Positions 19,334 through 24,702 of a stretch of 64,000 bases of DNA are shown in pieces. A program made the translations under genes and the position numbers. Positions within the stretch are counted from its first letter, which is position 1; every line of letters begins with the position of its first letter. Origin of the DNA: Flavobacterium haoranii (GTDB lineage: Bacteria; Bacteroidota; Bacteroidia; Flavobacteriales; Flavobacteriaceae); assembly GCF_009363055.1 (NCBI RefSeq), contig NZ_CP045292.1:2108001-2172000 (forward strand). Reading direction: 5' to 3'. The notes beneath the pieces are model-generated. The model was given only the letters and a program-made list of their open reading frames with translations, was not told where the DNA came from and did not search any database.

Positions 19334-21384
19334 TTATTCTCTAAATATTTTGGGAACCAAAAATAAAATGCCTTGTTCATAAAAAAACTGAAACACTTCA
19401 TTTAGCTCTATAGATTCTTGAAAATGAACACTTTTAGAAAATAATTTTTCAACATAGACTTTCATTTCATCATTTTGAAATTCTAATAAAATTTCATTTT
19501 CATTCCAATTAATTAAGCAATCTCGAGTCTTTAAATCGTAGCTTAAATTAGGATTAATATAAATATCAAAATCCTCAAATTCATATGTCTTTTGCAACAA
19601 TTTATATAAAGCTTCTAAAACTTTTTTAGGTGAAATCGACGACAAACAAACCCTATCTTTACAGTTTATGATAACATCATAATTACATTTTAAAGTACAA
19701 TTTCCAGGCTTGCCCCAAACAATTTCATTTTGCTCCGAAAAACTTCCCCAAGAACCTGGACCCGTTGGCCCATAAATTCCAACTGTTGGTACATTAAAAG
19801 CTCCTGCAACATGTGTAATTCCTGCATCGTTCCCAATGTGAAAAACAGCACTTGCCATAGCTTCGCCTACTTCGTGTAAATCTCCGGTAATTAAATCAAT
19901 ATGTGAGTACTCTTTAGATAAAAATTTTTGTGGATTTGGGTCGTCTTTACCTAAAATAATTTTACATCGTAATTTTGGAAAAACAGCATGAATCTCTTCT
20001 ATTAATTTTGCATAATTTTCTGTTGGCCAAATTTTTAATAAAAAACCAGCTCCTGGATGCAAAGTATAATGAAGGTTTTCAAAATTCGTTTCTCTTTCAA
20101 AATATGGAAAACCTAAATTTTTATTTGACAAATCTCTATGAAAACGGCAAACCGCATCGATATAATGCTGTATAGAATGTTGTTTCACTTTCTTACTAGT
20201 AATATACTCGATTTGTTCAACGCTTCTATCGAAAATTGGATAGTTCCCAAATTCGATAATTTTATCAAATTTAGTTTGATCTATTTGAGTTGCATCTACA
20301 ACTTGAATTCCTTTTAAATGCTTTTGAAAAAAACTTACCAAACGTGGACTTAAACCATAAGTAACCGAATCTGAAACTTGTTTTAATTTATAAACTGCTG
20401 GTAGTGTAAAGAAAATATCACCAAGTCCGCCATAACTTTTTAAAACCAAAACATTTCCTAATGATTTTGAAACCGAACTTTGCACAGGAATATCTTTAAT
20501 TTTACTCCAAAATTCCAAAATCGTAGATTGCATTTCTTGTTTTGCACGTTCTTTATCATCTGGATAAAAATCAAAAGACCATGTTCCTACTCTATCATTT
20601 GTAATTAATTTACAACCAGATAAAAATGCTTCTGCAGCTAATCTTCCTGATGGTTCCGGCCAAACAGGCTTGATAATTATTTCTTTGGTTTTACCTAAAA
20701 CTTTTAAAACCTCAGTATTCTCGATTGGTTCTCTGAACTTAATATTTTTTGGAAGTTCTCTTCTTAATTTATTTTCACCAAAAACTACAAAGTTCTTATT
20801 CGGATGTTCCAAAGCATAATCTACAAATGCATCACCTCCTTTTAAATAACTTAACTCTCCAAAAAAGGAATCTCTTCAACTTTTTCTTCTGAAATACAAA
20901 TGTTCTCCACATCTACTGTTGGTGGCATGATTAAATAATTATGCGAAATTGCTTCACCATAAAACTCGACATGAGATTCAAAGTGCTTTGGAGATTGAAA
21001 AATATTGAGTTGAGAATTTGCAAAAAGTGTTCGAAACAAATGAAATTTATCTGTATTGCAACAATTTCTAATATTTCTATCTAAAGTGCATAAAATATTT
21101 CTTCGAACGCAAAAGTTATAATCAAATTCTATCTTAGAAAAAGGAATTTTAGATTCTAAAACATAGTTTAAAATATCTAACTCAAATTTACATCTTGAGG
21201 TGTTACAAATAATTAGTAAATCGTGAGCTAAAATTGTAGTTTTTGTTTCTTCAAAATTTTGCAACAAACCTACTTCAACAAGAAAACCCAACTCCTTTCC
21301 TTTTGAAACTAGTTGGGCAATTGTTAACTCAGCTCCTCTTTTTAGCGTAAGAGCCGTATCATGTAAAAAAAGAATTTTTTTCAA
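19334..21384 (-). CDS. Two-domain glycosyltransferase (GT4-like plus GT9), frameshifted at a T run
   Basis: Two frames belong to one gene. The upstream frame (21384-20851, 177 residues) begins at TTG with MKKILFLHDTALT and stops shortly after EEIPF. The downstream frame continues as FFGELSYLKGGDAF. The junction is a run of six T on the minus strand (20861-20866); a seventh restores a protein of about 683 residues. Residues 1-330 look like a GT-B fold, GT4-type domain (KGGDAFVDYA, EPSGRLAAEAFLSGC). Residues 335-600 are a GT9/heptosyltransferase domain (SYGGLGDIFFTLPA, HPGAGFLLKIWP, GNDAGITHVAGAF). It is coupled to the upstream GYYDD lipoprotein by a 3-base gap. Acceptor unknown. Confidence 0.82.
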
Positions 21385-21387
21385 ATT

Positions 21388-21642
21388 TTATCCTCCGTAA
21401 TAGCCATCGTCGTAGTAACCGTCGTCATAATATCCGTCGTCATAATATCCGTCATCGTAGTAACCATCATCATAATATCCGTCGTCATAATATCCGTCAT
21501 CATAATAACCGTCGTCATAATAACCATTATTATAATTATCATCATCTGAAGAACAAGAAGCCATCAAATTACCTGTAATAACAATAGCCGAAGTAGCTAA
21601 AAGCACTTTTCCTGAATTCTTTAAAAAGTTACGTCTATTCAT
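21388..21642 (-). CDS. Tat-type lipoprotein with tandem GYYDD repeats
   Basis: An 84-residue protein. The N-terminus NRRNFLKNSGKVLL is a twin-arginine signal, followed by a hydrophobic stretch and a lipobox ending MASC (C29). After SSDDDNYNN, the mature part consists of eight GYYDD pentapeptides and a final GYYGG. The 15-base units differ mostly at synonymous positions (GGT/GGA/GGC-type and TAC/TAT changes). The end of the gene, GGAGGATAA, supplies a strong Shine-Dalgarno-like sequence for the following TTG-started glycosyltransferase. No family is recognised. A cell-envelope substrate for that glycosyltransferase is one possibility. Confidence 0.8.
   Translation of the reverse strand: MNRRNFLKNSGKVLLATSAIVITGNLMASCSSDDDNYNNGYYDDGYYDDGYYDDGYYDDGYYDDGYYDDGYYDDGYYDDGYYGG
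21391..21525 (-). repeat. 15-base minisatellite coding for GYYDD
   Basis: Nine tandem 15-base units, imperfect at the DNA level, lie inside the Tat lipoprotein gene. Most differences between units are silent. Such arrays can change copy number by slippage in frame. Confidence 0.85.
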
Positions 21643-21708: not shown

Positions 21709-21740
21709 TTGCTCAATTTAATCGATTATTATTAACTTTG
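21709..21740 (+). promoter_or_regulatory. Promoter of the trhO-trhP-ferredoxin operon
   Basis: TTG at 21709-21711, 21-base spacer, TAACTTTG at 21733-21740. It closely matches the Bacteroidota consensus. A small hairpin (GAACTTT and AAAGTTC, 21746-21766) follows in the leader before the ATG at 21798. Confidence 0.65.
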
Positions 21741-21797: not shown

Positions 21798-23165
21798 ATG
21801 CAACTGTACAACACTTTAAGCGCAGAAGAACGTGCCCGTTTAATCGATGAAGCGGGAAAAGAAAGAATCACACTTTCGTTCTATGCGTATGCCAAAATTG
21901 AAAATCCACAACAATTTCGCGACGATTTATTTTTAGCTTGGAATCCTTTAGAAGCTCTAGGTCGTATTTATGTTGCTCACGAAGGAATTAATGCTCAAAT
22001 GAGTGTTCCGGCTGACCAATTTGAAGCCTTCAGAACCACTTTGGATGAATATGATTTCATGCGTGGCATTCGTTTAAATGTGGCTCGCGAACAAGACGAT
22101 CATTCTTTTTTAAAGTTAACCATAAAAGTGCGTCACAAAATCGTTGCCGATGGATTAGACGATGCTACTTTTGATGTAACCAATAAAGGAATTCACTTAA
22201 AAGCGAATGAATTCAACCAATTATTAGACGATCCTAATACCATTGTGGTCGATTTTCGTAACCATTACGAAAGTGAAGTTGGTCATTTTAAAGGCGCCAT
22301 CACACCTGATGTTGATACCTTCCGTGAAAGTTTGCCTATTATTAACGACCAACTAAAAGACTACAAAGAATCTAAAAACTTGTTGATGTATTGCACCGGA
22401 GGAATTCGTTGCGAAAAAGCTTCAGCTTACTTCAAACATCAAGGTTTTAAAAATGTGTACCAATTAGAAGGCGGTGTTATTGAATATGCACGTCAGGTAA
22501 AAGCAGAAAACTTAGAAAGTAAATTCATTGGTAAAAATTTCGTTTTCGACAATCGTTTAGGCGAAAGAATTACCGATGATATCATTTCGCAATGTCATCA
22601 ATGTGGAAAACCTTGCGATACTCATACCAATTGCGCTAACGACGGCTGTCACTTGTTGTTTATTCAATGTGACGAATGTGCTGCCAAAATGGATCATTGT
22701 TGTTCTACCGAATGTCAAGAAATCATTCATTTGCCTTTGGTGGAACAAATTAAACTGAGAAAGGGACAAAGCAACAGCAATAAAATTTTCAAAAAAGGAA
22801 AATCGGAAGCTTTAAAATTCAAACATTCAGGTGCATTGTCTGATGTTTCTTTAGCTAAAGCAAAACCAGAAAACGATTTACCTATTCGTCAAAAAATTGC
22901 CACTAAAAAAGTTTTGGTGGGTAATGGCGAACATTATTATTCTAAATCGCAAGTCGCTTTATTTACACTTACGAATAAAGAAATCAATACCGGCGATTTA
23001 CTTTTAATTTCCGGACCAACAACAGGCGAAGTTGAATTTACCTTGGAAAAAATGTTGGTTAACGGAGTTGAAAATACATTGGCAACTGCCGGCGATAAAA
23101 TTACTATTGAATTGCCTTTTAAAATTAGAAAATCAGATAAACTATTTAAAATCACTAAGAAGTAA
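21798..23165 (+). CDS. trhO: tRNA uridine(34) hydroxylase TrhO (YceA-type rhodanese) with U32-type C-terminal domain
   Basis: It uses oxygen to form 5-hydroxyuridine at wobble position 34 of tRNAs. The 455-residue protein has an N-terminal acylphosphatase-like region, a rhodanese domain with active-site C199 in YCTGGIRCEKA, and a cysteine-rich cluster near residues 265-310 (CHQCGKPC, CDEC, HCCSTEC). The last 86 residues (370-455) form an extra domain that aligns with the end of the neighbouring TrhP (GPTTG, MLVN, LPFKIRKSDK). E. coli TrhO, about 350 residues, lacks this tail. The stop overlaps the trhP start (TAATG). The enzyme assignment rests on homology to YceA. Confidence 0.9.
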   Translation: MQLYNTLSAEERARLIDEAGKERITLSFYAYAKIENPQQFRDDLFLAWNPLEALGRIYVAHEGINAQMSVPADQFEAFRTTLDEYDFMRGIRLNVAREQDDHSFLKLTIKVRHKIVADGLDDATFDVTNKGIHLKANEFNQLLDDPNTIVVDFRNHYESEVGHFKGAITPDVDTFRESLPIINDQLKDYKESKNLLMYCTGGIRCEKASAYFKHQGFKNVYQLEGGVIEYARQVKAENLESKFIGKNFVFDNRLGERITDDIISQCHQCGKPCDTHTNCANDGCHLLFIQCDECAAKMDHCCSTECQEIIHLPLVEQIKLRKGQSNSNKIFKKGKSEALKFKHSGALSDVSLAKAKPENDLPIRQKIATKKVLVGNGEHYYSKSQVALFTLTNKEINTGDLLLISGPTTGEVEFTLEKMLVNGVENTLATAGDKITIELPFKIRKSDKLFKITKK

Positions 23166-24406
23166 TGACTACTACAGGAAAAATAGAATTAATGGCACCT
23201 GCTGGTAATTTTGAATCCTTACAAGCAGCTTTAGACAACGGATGTGATTCAGTTTATTTTGGTGTAGAGCAATTAAATATGCGTGCACGCGCTTCTATCA
23301 ATTTTGTCTTAGACGATTTACCAGAAATAGCGCGCCGTTGCCAAGAAAAAAACGTTAGAACCTATCTGACTCTAAATACCATTGTTTACGATCACGATTT
23401 GTCGATTGTTAAAACTCTTTTAAATAAGGCAAAAGAAGCTAATATTACAGCGGTGATTGCATCTGATCAAGCGGTAATTATGACAGCTAGAAGCATTGGT
23501 ATGGAAGTTCATATTTCGACACAAGTAAATGTAACCAACATTGAAACGGTGAAATTTTACGCCATGTTTGCCGATACAATTGTACTTTCTCGCGAATTGA
23601 GTTTACGTCAAGTAAAGAAAATTACGGAGCAAATTGAGAAAGAACAGGTTAAAGGACCAAGTGGCAATTTAGTGGAAATCGAAATTTTCGGTCACGGTGC
23701 TTTATGTATGGCCGTTTCCGGAAAATGCTATTTGAGTTTACATTCGCACAATTCTTCTGCAAATCGTGGAGCTTGCAAACAAAATTGTCGTAAAAAATAC
23801 ACGGTTATCGACCAAGAAACGGGTTTCGAAATCGAAATCGACAACGAATACATGATGTCTCCAAAAGATTTATGTACGCTTGATTTCTTAGACCAAGTGA
23901 TTGATACCGGAATAAAAGTTTTAAAAATTGAAGGTCGTGGTCGCGCTCCAGAATACGTAGCAACCGTTGTCAAAACGTACAGAGAAGCTATTGATTCGTA
24001 TTATGACGGAACATTTTCGCAAGAAAAAGTAGCCGAATGGATGGAAGCGCTAAATACGGTTTACAACAGAGGTTTTTGGAGTGGTTACTATTTGGGCCAA
24101 AAATTAGGCGAATGGAGTAAAGATCCCGGAAGTAATGCTACACAAAAGAAAGTATACATTGGAAAAGGAGTGCATTATTTCCCTAAAGCAAGTATTGCTG
24201 AATTTAAAATTGAGGCGTATGATCTTAAAAAAGGAGATAAAGTTTTAATTACGGGTCCAACAACGGGTGTACAAGAAATGGTTATCGAAGACATGATGGT
24301 TAACGACACTACTTGTGAAAAAGCGACAAAAGGCGACAGCTTAACGTTGAAACTTCCGTTTAGAATACGTTTGTCTGACAAAATGTATAAAATTGTAGAA
24401 GCTTAA
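23165..24406 (+). CDS. trhP: Peptidase U32-family tRNA hydroxylation protein TrhP (YegQ-type)
   Basis: In E. coli, TrhP acts with prephenate to make 5-hydroxyuridine at tRNA position 34 without oxygen. The 413-residue protein begins MTTTGKIELMAPAGN, typical of U32 proteins, and has the U32 signature EIFGHGALCMAVSGKCYLS. Four conserved cysteines (in ALCMAVSGKC and GACKQNC) probably bind an iron-sulfur cluster. Residues 328-413 are the U32 C-terminal domain, also present on the adjacent TrhO. It overlaps trhO upstream and the ferredoxin gene downstream by one base each. RlhA-type 23S rRNA hydroxylation is an alternative role in this family. Confidence 0.87.
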   Translation: MTTTGKIELMAPAGNFESLQAALDNGCDSVYFGVEQLNMRARASINFVLDDLPEIARRCQEKNVRTYLTLNTIVYDHDLSIVKTLLNKAKEANITAVIASDQAVIMTARSIGMEVHISTQVNVTNIETVKFYAMFADTIVLSRELSLRQVKKITEQIEKEQVKGPSGNLVEIEIFGHGALCMAVSGKCYLSLHSHNSSANRGACKQNCRKKYTVIDQETGFEIEIDNEYMMSPKDLCTLDFLDQVIDTGIKVLKIEGRGRAPEYVATVVKTYREAIDSYYDGTFSQEKVAEWMEALNTVYNRGFWSGYYLGQKLGEWSKDPGSNATQKKVYIGKGVHYFPKASIAEFKIEAYDLKKGDKVLITGPTTGVQEMVIEDMMVNDTTCEKATKGDSLTLKLPFRIRLSDKMYKIVEA

Positions 24407-24636
24407 TGGTTATCATTACTTTACAACGAGATAAGTGTATAGGTTGCAATTATTGTGTTGAATTTGCCCCTAACCAATTCCAAATGTCTAAAAAAGACGG
24501 AAAAACGGTTTTAATAAAATCGATCAACACCAAAGGATTTCACACCTTAAAATCGCCCGATCACACCATTGTAGAAGCGTGTGAATTAGCCGAAAAAGCT
24601 TGTCCGGTAAATATTATATCGGTTAAAGAAACCTAA
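24406..24636 (+). CDS. 4Fe-4S ferredoxin
   Basis: A 76-residue soluble electron carrier. C11, C14 and C17 (CIGCNYC) with C66 followed by proline (KACPVN) are placed as in monocluster [4Fe-4S] ferredoxins; C59 is an extra cysteine. It starts inside the trhP stop codon. The linkage suggests that it serves the iron-sulfur U32 hydroxylation enzyme. A general redox role remains possible. Confidence 0.9.
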   Translation: MVIITLQRDKCIGCNYCVEFAPNQFQMSKKDGKTVLIKSINTKGFHTLKSPDHTIVEACELAEKACPVNIISVKET

Positions 24637-24663: not shown

Positions 24664-24702
24664 ACCTGTTTTCGTTATAAATGAAAGCAGGTTTTTCTTT
24701 TT
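24664..24702 (+). terminator. Terminator after the trhO-trhP-ferredoxin operon
   Basis: A 10-bp stem (ACCTGTTTTC and GAAAGCAGGT, one G-U pair), a 9-base loop, then TTTTCTTTTT. Confidence 0.85.

Follow-up and report, generated by a model that had tools for sequence, protein, structure and literature searches.

Three genes on the forward strand of the Flavobacterium haoranii genome appear to encode both of the enzymes that hydroxylate U34 of tRNA. The window analyzed here is a stretch of 64,000 nucleotides (NCBI RefSeq assembly GCF_009363055.1, contig NZ_CP045292.1, positions 2,108,001 to 2,172,000), and positions below are counted from its first letter. The genes (Table 1) are predicted to encode a TrhO protein with an extra C-terminal domain, or tail, a TrhP-like protein of the U32 family, and a small ferredoxin. 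The tail of TrhO resembles that of the U32 protein. Sakai et al. (2019, PMC6599085) describe U34 hydroxylation as the only case in which a single organism has two independent pathways for one RNA modification.

As a preliminary description of the locus held, the three genes form a run with one-base overlaps. The open reading frame (ORF) coordinates agree with this, and at both junctions the A of the start codon is the last A of the upstream TAA. The same description assumed one promoter and one terminator. A hairpin beyond the ferredoxin gene bears out the terminator, but the single promoter is not supported, because the motif upstream of trhO, which matches what we take to be the Bacteroidota-type consensus, is not above chance (2 matches in the window versus 2.7 expected).

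Table 1. Features of the trhO operon and its flanks, in positions of the window
Feature	Positions	Strand	Description and basis
Candidate Bacteroidota-type promoter, TTG-N21-TAACTTTG	21709-21740	+	Pattern match to a presumed consensus; frequency at chance level
trhO	21798-23165	+	455 residues; predicted oxygen-dependent tRNA U34 hydroxylase with extra C-terminal domain; NCBIfam TrhO and Pfam domains
TrhO active-site loop, C199-TGGIR-204	22392-22409	+	Residues read from sequence
Basic linker, TrhO residues 323-369	22764-22904	+	Net charge +6; mostly low-confidence in model
U32-type C-terminal domain of TrhO, residues 370-455	22905-23162	+	EF-Tu-domain-2-like barrel; alignment, profile, and fold comparison
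trhP-like U32-family gene	23165-24406	+	413 residues; Pfam Peptidase_U32
U32 motif E173, C181, C188	23681-23728	+	Spacing same as E. coli TrhP E162/C170/C177
C-terminal domain of U32 protein, residues 328-413	24146-24403	+	Alignment to TrhO tail
Ferredoxin gene	24406-24636	+	76 residues; predicted single-cluster [4Fe-4S]; Pfam Fer4_13
Intrinsic terminator hairpin with T-rich tail	24664-24692	+	3' of ferredoxin gene; z -5.2

Proteins encoded by the operon

The TrhO protein passes the curated NCBIfam TrhO model NF001133 (261.3 bits; cut-off, 170), in agreement with the name that it was first given, and the Pfam domains UPF0176_N, Rhodanese, and Rhodanese_C all score over their cut-offs. Like TrhO (YceA, UPF0176) elsewhere, it has these three domains, the CTGGIR loop, and the K/R pair of the tRNA-binding sheet, here K110/R112, which is needed in E. 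coli TrhO. Four residues of the loop are essential in the E. coli enzyme (Sakai et al. 2019, PMC6599085). By the curated model and the conserved residues, the protein is predicted to be an O2-dependent U34 hydroxylase. It differs from TrhO elsewhere in its additional 86-residue U32-type barrel on a basic linker, and in sharing an operon with a U32 gene. The domains named for E. coli TrhO in the Fig. 6 legend of Sakai et al. (2019, PMC6599085) are Rhodanese and Rhodanese_C only, and a solved tRNA U34 hydroxylase (9j5o, a chain of 352 residues) aligns to residues 19-308 only of the window protein. Both agree with the initial claim that E. coli TrhO lacks the tail.

The second protein matches Pfam Peptidase_U32 (PF01136, 240 bits), and its gene is the sole U32 match of the genome. 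Its best NCBIfam model is TrhP (NF011996), yet the score of 199.8 bits is far under the cut-off of 534, and we therefore label it TrhP-like. Thus the identity as trhP that was first assigned is favored by the best model, the E/C/C residues, and the context, but not by the curated cut-off. E. coli TrhP (YegQ) and B. subtilis TrhP1/TrhP2 (YrrN/YrrO) likewise have a U32 domain with essential E/C/C residues and a C-terminal U32-type barrel. However, E. coli TrhP is described with PF16325 (the U32 C-terminal domain), which does not recognize the tail of the window protein, and the B. subtilis enzyme is a yrrN/yrrO gene pair, whereas the window has one gene, which overlaps a gene for a single-cluster ferredoxin. 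A search of PDB sequences with the U32 protein gave no match better than E 0.089. A chorismate mutase domain is present in the genome, so prephenate is likely made. As a separate observation, a tail-less U32 frame of 623-639 residues (loci L078-L088), perhaps of the RlhA type, is present in 11 of 14 sampled members of the genus but was not matched in the genome of the window.

The ferredoxin matches Fer4_13 (43.5 bits; cut-off, 24.5) and Fer4_15 (40.8 bits; cut-off, 22.4). Its likely cluster ligands, C11, C14, C17, and C66, make up one set of four. YfhL of E. coli is reportedly also a small ferredoxin tied to a TrhP-type enzyme, but it is said to be of the two-cluster type, whereas the window protein has one [4Fe-4S] site by its cysteines and adjoins the U32 gene. 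Because YfhL has reportedly been linked to 5-hydroxyuridine (ho5U) by genomic context, the linkage of trhP to a ferredoxin as such is probably already known.

A C-terminal domain shared by TrhO and the U32 protein

TrhO residues 370-454 align without gaps to residues 328-412 of the U32 protein, with 39 of 85 positions identical (BLASTP E 4e-22). The alignment score of 209 compares with a mean of 26, a standard deviation of 5, and a maximum of 54 among 2000 shuffles. The motifs GPTTG and LPFxIRxSDK and the K-I ending occur in both tails, so the resemblance first counted by eye, about 39 identities with these motifs, is confirmed and lies far above the shuffled scores. Within the genome, searches gave the tail in these two proteins alone.

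A Pfam scan of both proteins gave no match to PF16325 at E 1 and left the tails without any Pfam domain. Among six related tails that were scanned, three match PF16325 weakly (best, 20.9 bits versus a cut-off of 28.2). A profile was made of 21 U32 tails, all from genomes that do not belong to the order; four U32 tails were kept out of it (three of the order, and that of G092, which groups with them). This profile finds all 29 TrhO tails, at E values from 6.5e-28 to 4.3e-24 (window, 6.6e-26; 10000 sequences assumed). It matched none of 32 tail-less TrhOs, and none of 580 shuffled tails scored better than E 3.5. Comparison of a profile of TrhO tails with one of U32 tails gave a probability of 99.9. 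The kinship to the U32 C-terminal domain that the preliminary description offered for a profile search is thus found, and by these comparisons the TrhO tail is homologous to that domain.

The fold of the tail is the barrel of the C-terminal domain of a Geobacillus U32 peptidase (PDB 4he5/4he6), and by fold comparison it resembles domain 2 of EF-Tu, a domain with which translation factors contact tRNA. The Geobacillus domain has only 17-18% identity and sits on a U32 protein, not on a rhodanese-type hydroxylase. Unlike the domain-2 barrels of EF-Tu, IF2, and SelB, the Flavobacterium barrel has no GTPase part and serves as the tail of a tRNA-modifying enzyme. By sequence, the best PDB match of the tail is RecA, at only E 0.12.

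Searches for free-standing tails gave 923 matches, and the 120 listed are short proteins. They are probably gene fragments, because many are on short contigs or are named UPF0176 or protease. Three of them (P0251, P0255, and P0257; 82-122 residues) hold little beyond the tail and are on contigs of 0.25-4.5 Mb; these are either free-standing tails or broken genes. A second tail match in one genome (G117:C4:561011-561229) has two internal stops and is probably a decayed U32 piece.

Distribution and gene linkage

The tail is matched in 146 of 296 genomes of the phylum. Most further counts come from one sample of 118 genomes of the order, the same draw being reused in several searches, and all counts are of genomes, not of independent events. 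Within this sample, the tail is found in 48 genomes, TrhO in 84, and a U32 gene in 32. The U32 gene is of the tailed, trhP-like kind in 28 of the 32 (412-416 residues where the gene was read). Tailed TrhO is present in all 14 genomes of the window's genus and in all 21 TrhO-bearing Weeksellaceae, and in none of the 49 other TrhO genomes. Two genomes (G118 and G378) have the tail on the U32 gene and not on TrhO. A wider scan took the best 80 of 562 relatives; 79 of these 80 have a readable tailed TrhO, and U32 and ferredoxin genes adjoin it in 12 of the 79.

A survey of linkage in Bacteroidota, suggested in the preliminary description, gives opposite answers inside and outside the order. The 19 order-sample genomes that hold both trhO and the trhP-like gene all have them on the same strand; the starts of the two domains are never more than 3.1 kb apart, and trhO is first in 18. 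Because TrhO is tail-less in four of these (G107, G118, G134, and G198), the tail is not a requirement for the linkage. Outside the order, 53 tail-bearing genomes were used (8 of the class and 45 of the phylum, with family f17 left out). No link between trhO and a U32 gene was seen in the 33 that have TrhO. In 10 of these, the two genes share a contig but are separated by at least 10.8 kb; in the other 23 they are on separate contigs, so that a few links might be concealed by contig breaks. These 33 genomes rule out the linkage as a trait of the whole phylum.

A ferredoxin homologue accompanies the trhP-like gene in 28 of 28 order-sample genomes, always adjoining and on the same strand, and is found in none of the other 90. 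It is a candidate for a dedicated electron or cluster partner of the U32 enzyme.

Retention of the tail without TrhP

Both the trhP-like gene and the ferredoxin are missing from 20 of 35 tailed-TrhO genomes. Of these, 16 are without any U32 match, and the other four contain the frame of 623-639 residues alone. The rough ratio of nonsynonymous to synonymous substitution rates (dN/dS) of the tail is 0.064-0.143 in nine pairs without TrhP and 0.045-0.116 in four pairs with it, versus 0.008-0.090 for the core. The TrhO tail is under purifying selection, also in genomes that lack TrhP. Because this selection acts where the trhP-like gene and the ferredoxin are missing, it argues that the tail works with TrhO itself, in cis.

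The preliminary description proposed that the shared domain recognizes the same tRNA or a shared partner. The homology agrees with this, but a shared partner can, as a rule, be neither TrhP nor the ferredoxin, because 20 of the 35 genomes lack both and yet keep the tail under purifying selection. The same count rules out that the tail exists to bind either of these proteins. The tail is also not a general permit for TrhP loss: among 10 sampled genomes from other genera of the same family, 6 lack TrhP although their TrhO has no tail.

Evolutionary history

All trees use only complete ORFs in the fetched loci. When 61 TrhO cores are placed on a tree, those of the tailed proteins from the genus and from Weeksellaceae form one clade (support 100/97), and one gain of the tail suffices. 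Constraining the genus to join its own family relatives is rejected (p 0.0055). The genus as a single clade is not rejected (p 0.29), so the fused trhO may have been transferred in either direction. Over 32 rows of the same tree, TrhP must have been gained or lost at least 10 times.

A tree of 75 tails has few columns and many weak forks. In it, the TrhO tails join the TrhP tails of the genus (97/90). Holding TrhO and TrhP tails together by genus is rejected (p 0.005), and by Weeksellaceae it is weakly rejected (p 0.048). In the tree of TrhP cores (45 rows, with one short U32 row dropped), the genus and Weeksellaceae are separate clades, and their union is not rejected (p 0.27). The simplest reading is that a Flavobacterium-type TrhP tail was copied once onto TrhO and that the fused trhO then moved; the direction and mode of the copy are ones that we infer. 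The tail of the window TrhO has a branch of 0.88, versus 0.098 for the core, and so changes faster in this lineage.

Proposed function and alternatives

The reading that we favor, with moderate confidence, is that the operon makes both U34-hydroxylating enzymes, TrhO working with O2 and the TrhP-like U32 enzyme paired with a ferredoxin of its own. The C-terminal domain would be the native barrel of the U32 enzyme, copied once onto TrhO in the Flavobacterium lineage, in which trhO lay directly upstream of trhP, and the fused trhO would later have moved between Flavobacterium and Weeksellaceae. In each enzyme, the barrel would act in cis, most likely by holding on to tRNA at a site outside the anticodon as the catalytic part reaches for U34; the barrel of TrhO would hang on a flexible basic linker. 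This reading draws on the homology, the fold, the conservation of the operon, the single gain on the TrhO tree, the retention of the tail without TrhP and ferredoxin, and purifying selection. From these we infer the reaction of the U32 enzyme and the binding of tRNA by the barrel.

A natural graft of the TrhP tail on TrhO, kept where TrhP is gone, offers a direct handle on the role of the tail in tRNA choice and hints at what the C-terminal domain of U32 proteins may do. E. coli TrhO binds tRNAAla1 and not tRNALeu3, and TrhP prefers tRNALeu3 and tRNAPro3 (Sakai et al. 2019, PMC6599085). Carrying a TrhP tail could change or broaden the set of tRNAs that TrhO chooses. Tentatively, TrhO might have captured both the tRNA grip of TrhP and its tRNA set (Leu and Pro in E. 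coli), so that the O2 enzyme would cover the whole U34 set, with the barrel holding tRNA far from the anticodon, perhaps on the acceptor side. If this is true, domain capture has given a single module for substrate recognition to two enzymes that catalyze the same reaction on tRNA but are chemically unrelated. Excerpts of the open-licence full-text literature gave no report of the tailed-TrhO architecture or of a trhO-trhP-ferredoxin operon.

Several observations weigh against parts of the favored reading. The tail has a net charge of +3 in the window TrhO, and TrhO tails average +1.5 (g1) and +0.7 (f2); the barrel is nearly neutral and therefore has no obvious RNA-binding patch, and this small charge gives no support to the idea of tRNA choice. 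The full-length TrhO model is weak (predicted local distance difference test, 68.6; predicted template modeling score, 0.49) and cannot place the tail. The tail is not needed for hydroxylation, because E. coli TrhO works without it, as given in PMC6599085, and TrhP is absent from many relatives whose TrhO has no tail. The dN/dS values are rough, since some genomes enter more than one pair and synonymous changes approach saturation in several pairs. On the tail tree, the TrhO tails are not firmly one group (97/76), and a single clade of g1 TrhP tails is not rejected (p 0.377), so that the exact donor of the tail may be another one.

Alternatively, the barrel might dock both enzymes to a common protein or ribosomal partner, such as a translation factor, a synthetase, or a ribosomal protein, and so reach tRNA indirectly. 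Barrels of the EF-Tu-domain-2 type, the fold of this translation-factor domain, contact RNA and also proteins, a point that counts against a grip on tRNA as such and, with the near-neutral TrhO tail, suits docking. The genomes that lack both TrhP and the ferredoxin exclude these two as required partners, which leaves a universal partner, and we regard docking as doubtful. It is quite unlikely that the TrhO tail serves only stability or self-association, as a by-product of recombination between neighboring genes that was later fixed. In its favor, 12 of 13 pairs have a tail dN/dS about 1.6 to 8 times that of the core (the 13th is equal), and the window tail is on a long branch; against this, every sampled TrhO of the genus (14) and of Weeksellaceae (21) has the tail, and it stays under purifying selection through 8 or more changes of TrhP presence.

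The U32 protein might instead hydroxylate another RNA, not tRNA, so that the operon would group two different RNA-modification steps. The missed TrhP cut-off fits this possibility. So does the report that trhP occurs mainly in gamma- and beta-proteobacteria and some delta-proteobacteria, with other U32 subfamilies unassigned (Sakai et al. 2019, PMC6599085). Such a role appears unlikely, given that TrhP is still the best model, that all 19 order-sample genomes with both genes link it to trhO, and that the tail is common to TrhO. The protein also retains the E/C/C residues, which are, however, common to RlhA. DUF3656 (PF12392), which we take to be a marker of RlhA, has no match in the genome, and the separate tail-less U32 frame is found in most sampled members of the genus.

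The end product of the favored pathway may be 5-methoxyuridine, as in B. subtilis, because the genome has no match to CmoB (PF08003) and has one strong catechol-O-methyltransferase-like protein (PF01596, 213 residues, G000:C1:2697027-2697617, locus L241). No curated model fits this protein, which is a candidate for the enzyme that methylates ho5U34. The PF01596 family occurs in 95 of the 118 order genomes; of the 20 listed genomes without a match, 19 are only 0.3-0.6 Mb in size.

Neighboring genes

The surroundings of the operon are partly conserved: among 20 fetched regions, 10 have the PSP1 gene downstream, with an additional gene before it in some, and 4 have recA upstream. Four genomes (G084, G142, G154, and G218) have trhO followed directly by the PSP1 gene, with trhP and the ferredoxin gene missing. 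In four genomes of the genus (L148, L149, L150, and L151), an ORF of 144-147 residues is located between trhO and trhP; that of L149 is an IS200-like Y1 transposase. Upstream of the operon in the window, an ORF on the minus strand (21388-21642) encodes a lipoprotein-like protein of 84 residues with tandem YYDDG repeats at its end and no Pfam match. Beyond it, two adjoining ORFs on the minus strand (19334-21384) resemble parts of a glycosyltransferase region; the ORF at 19334 has a family 9 domain, and the two are possibly one split gene.
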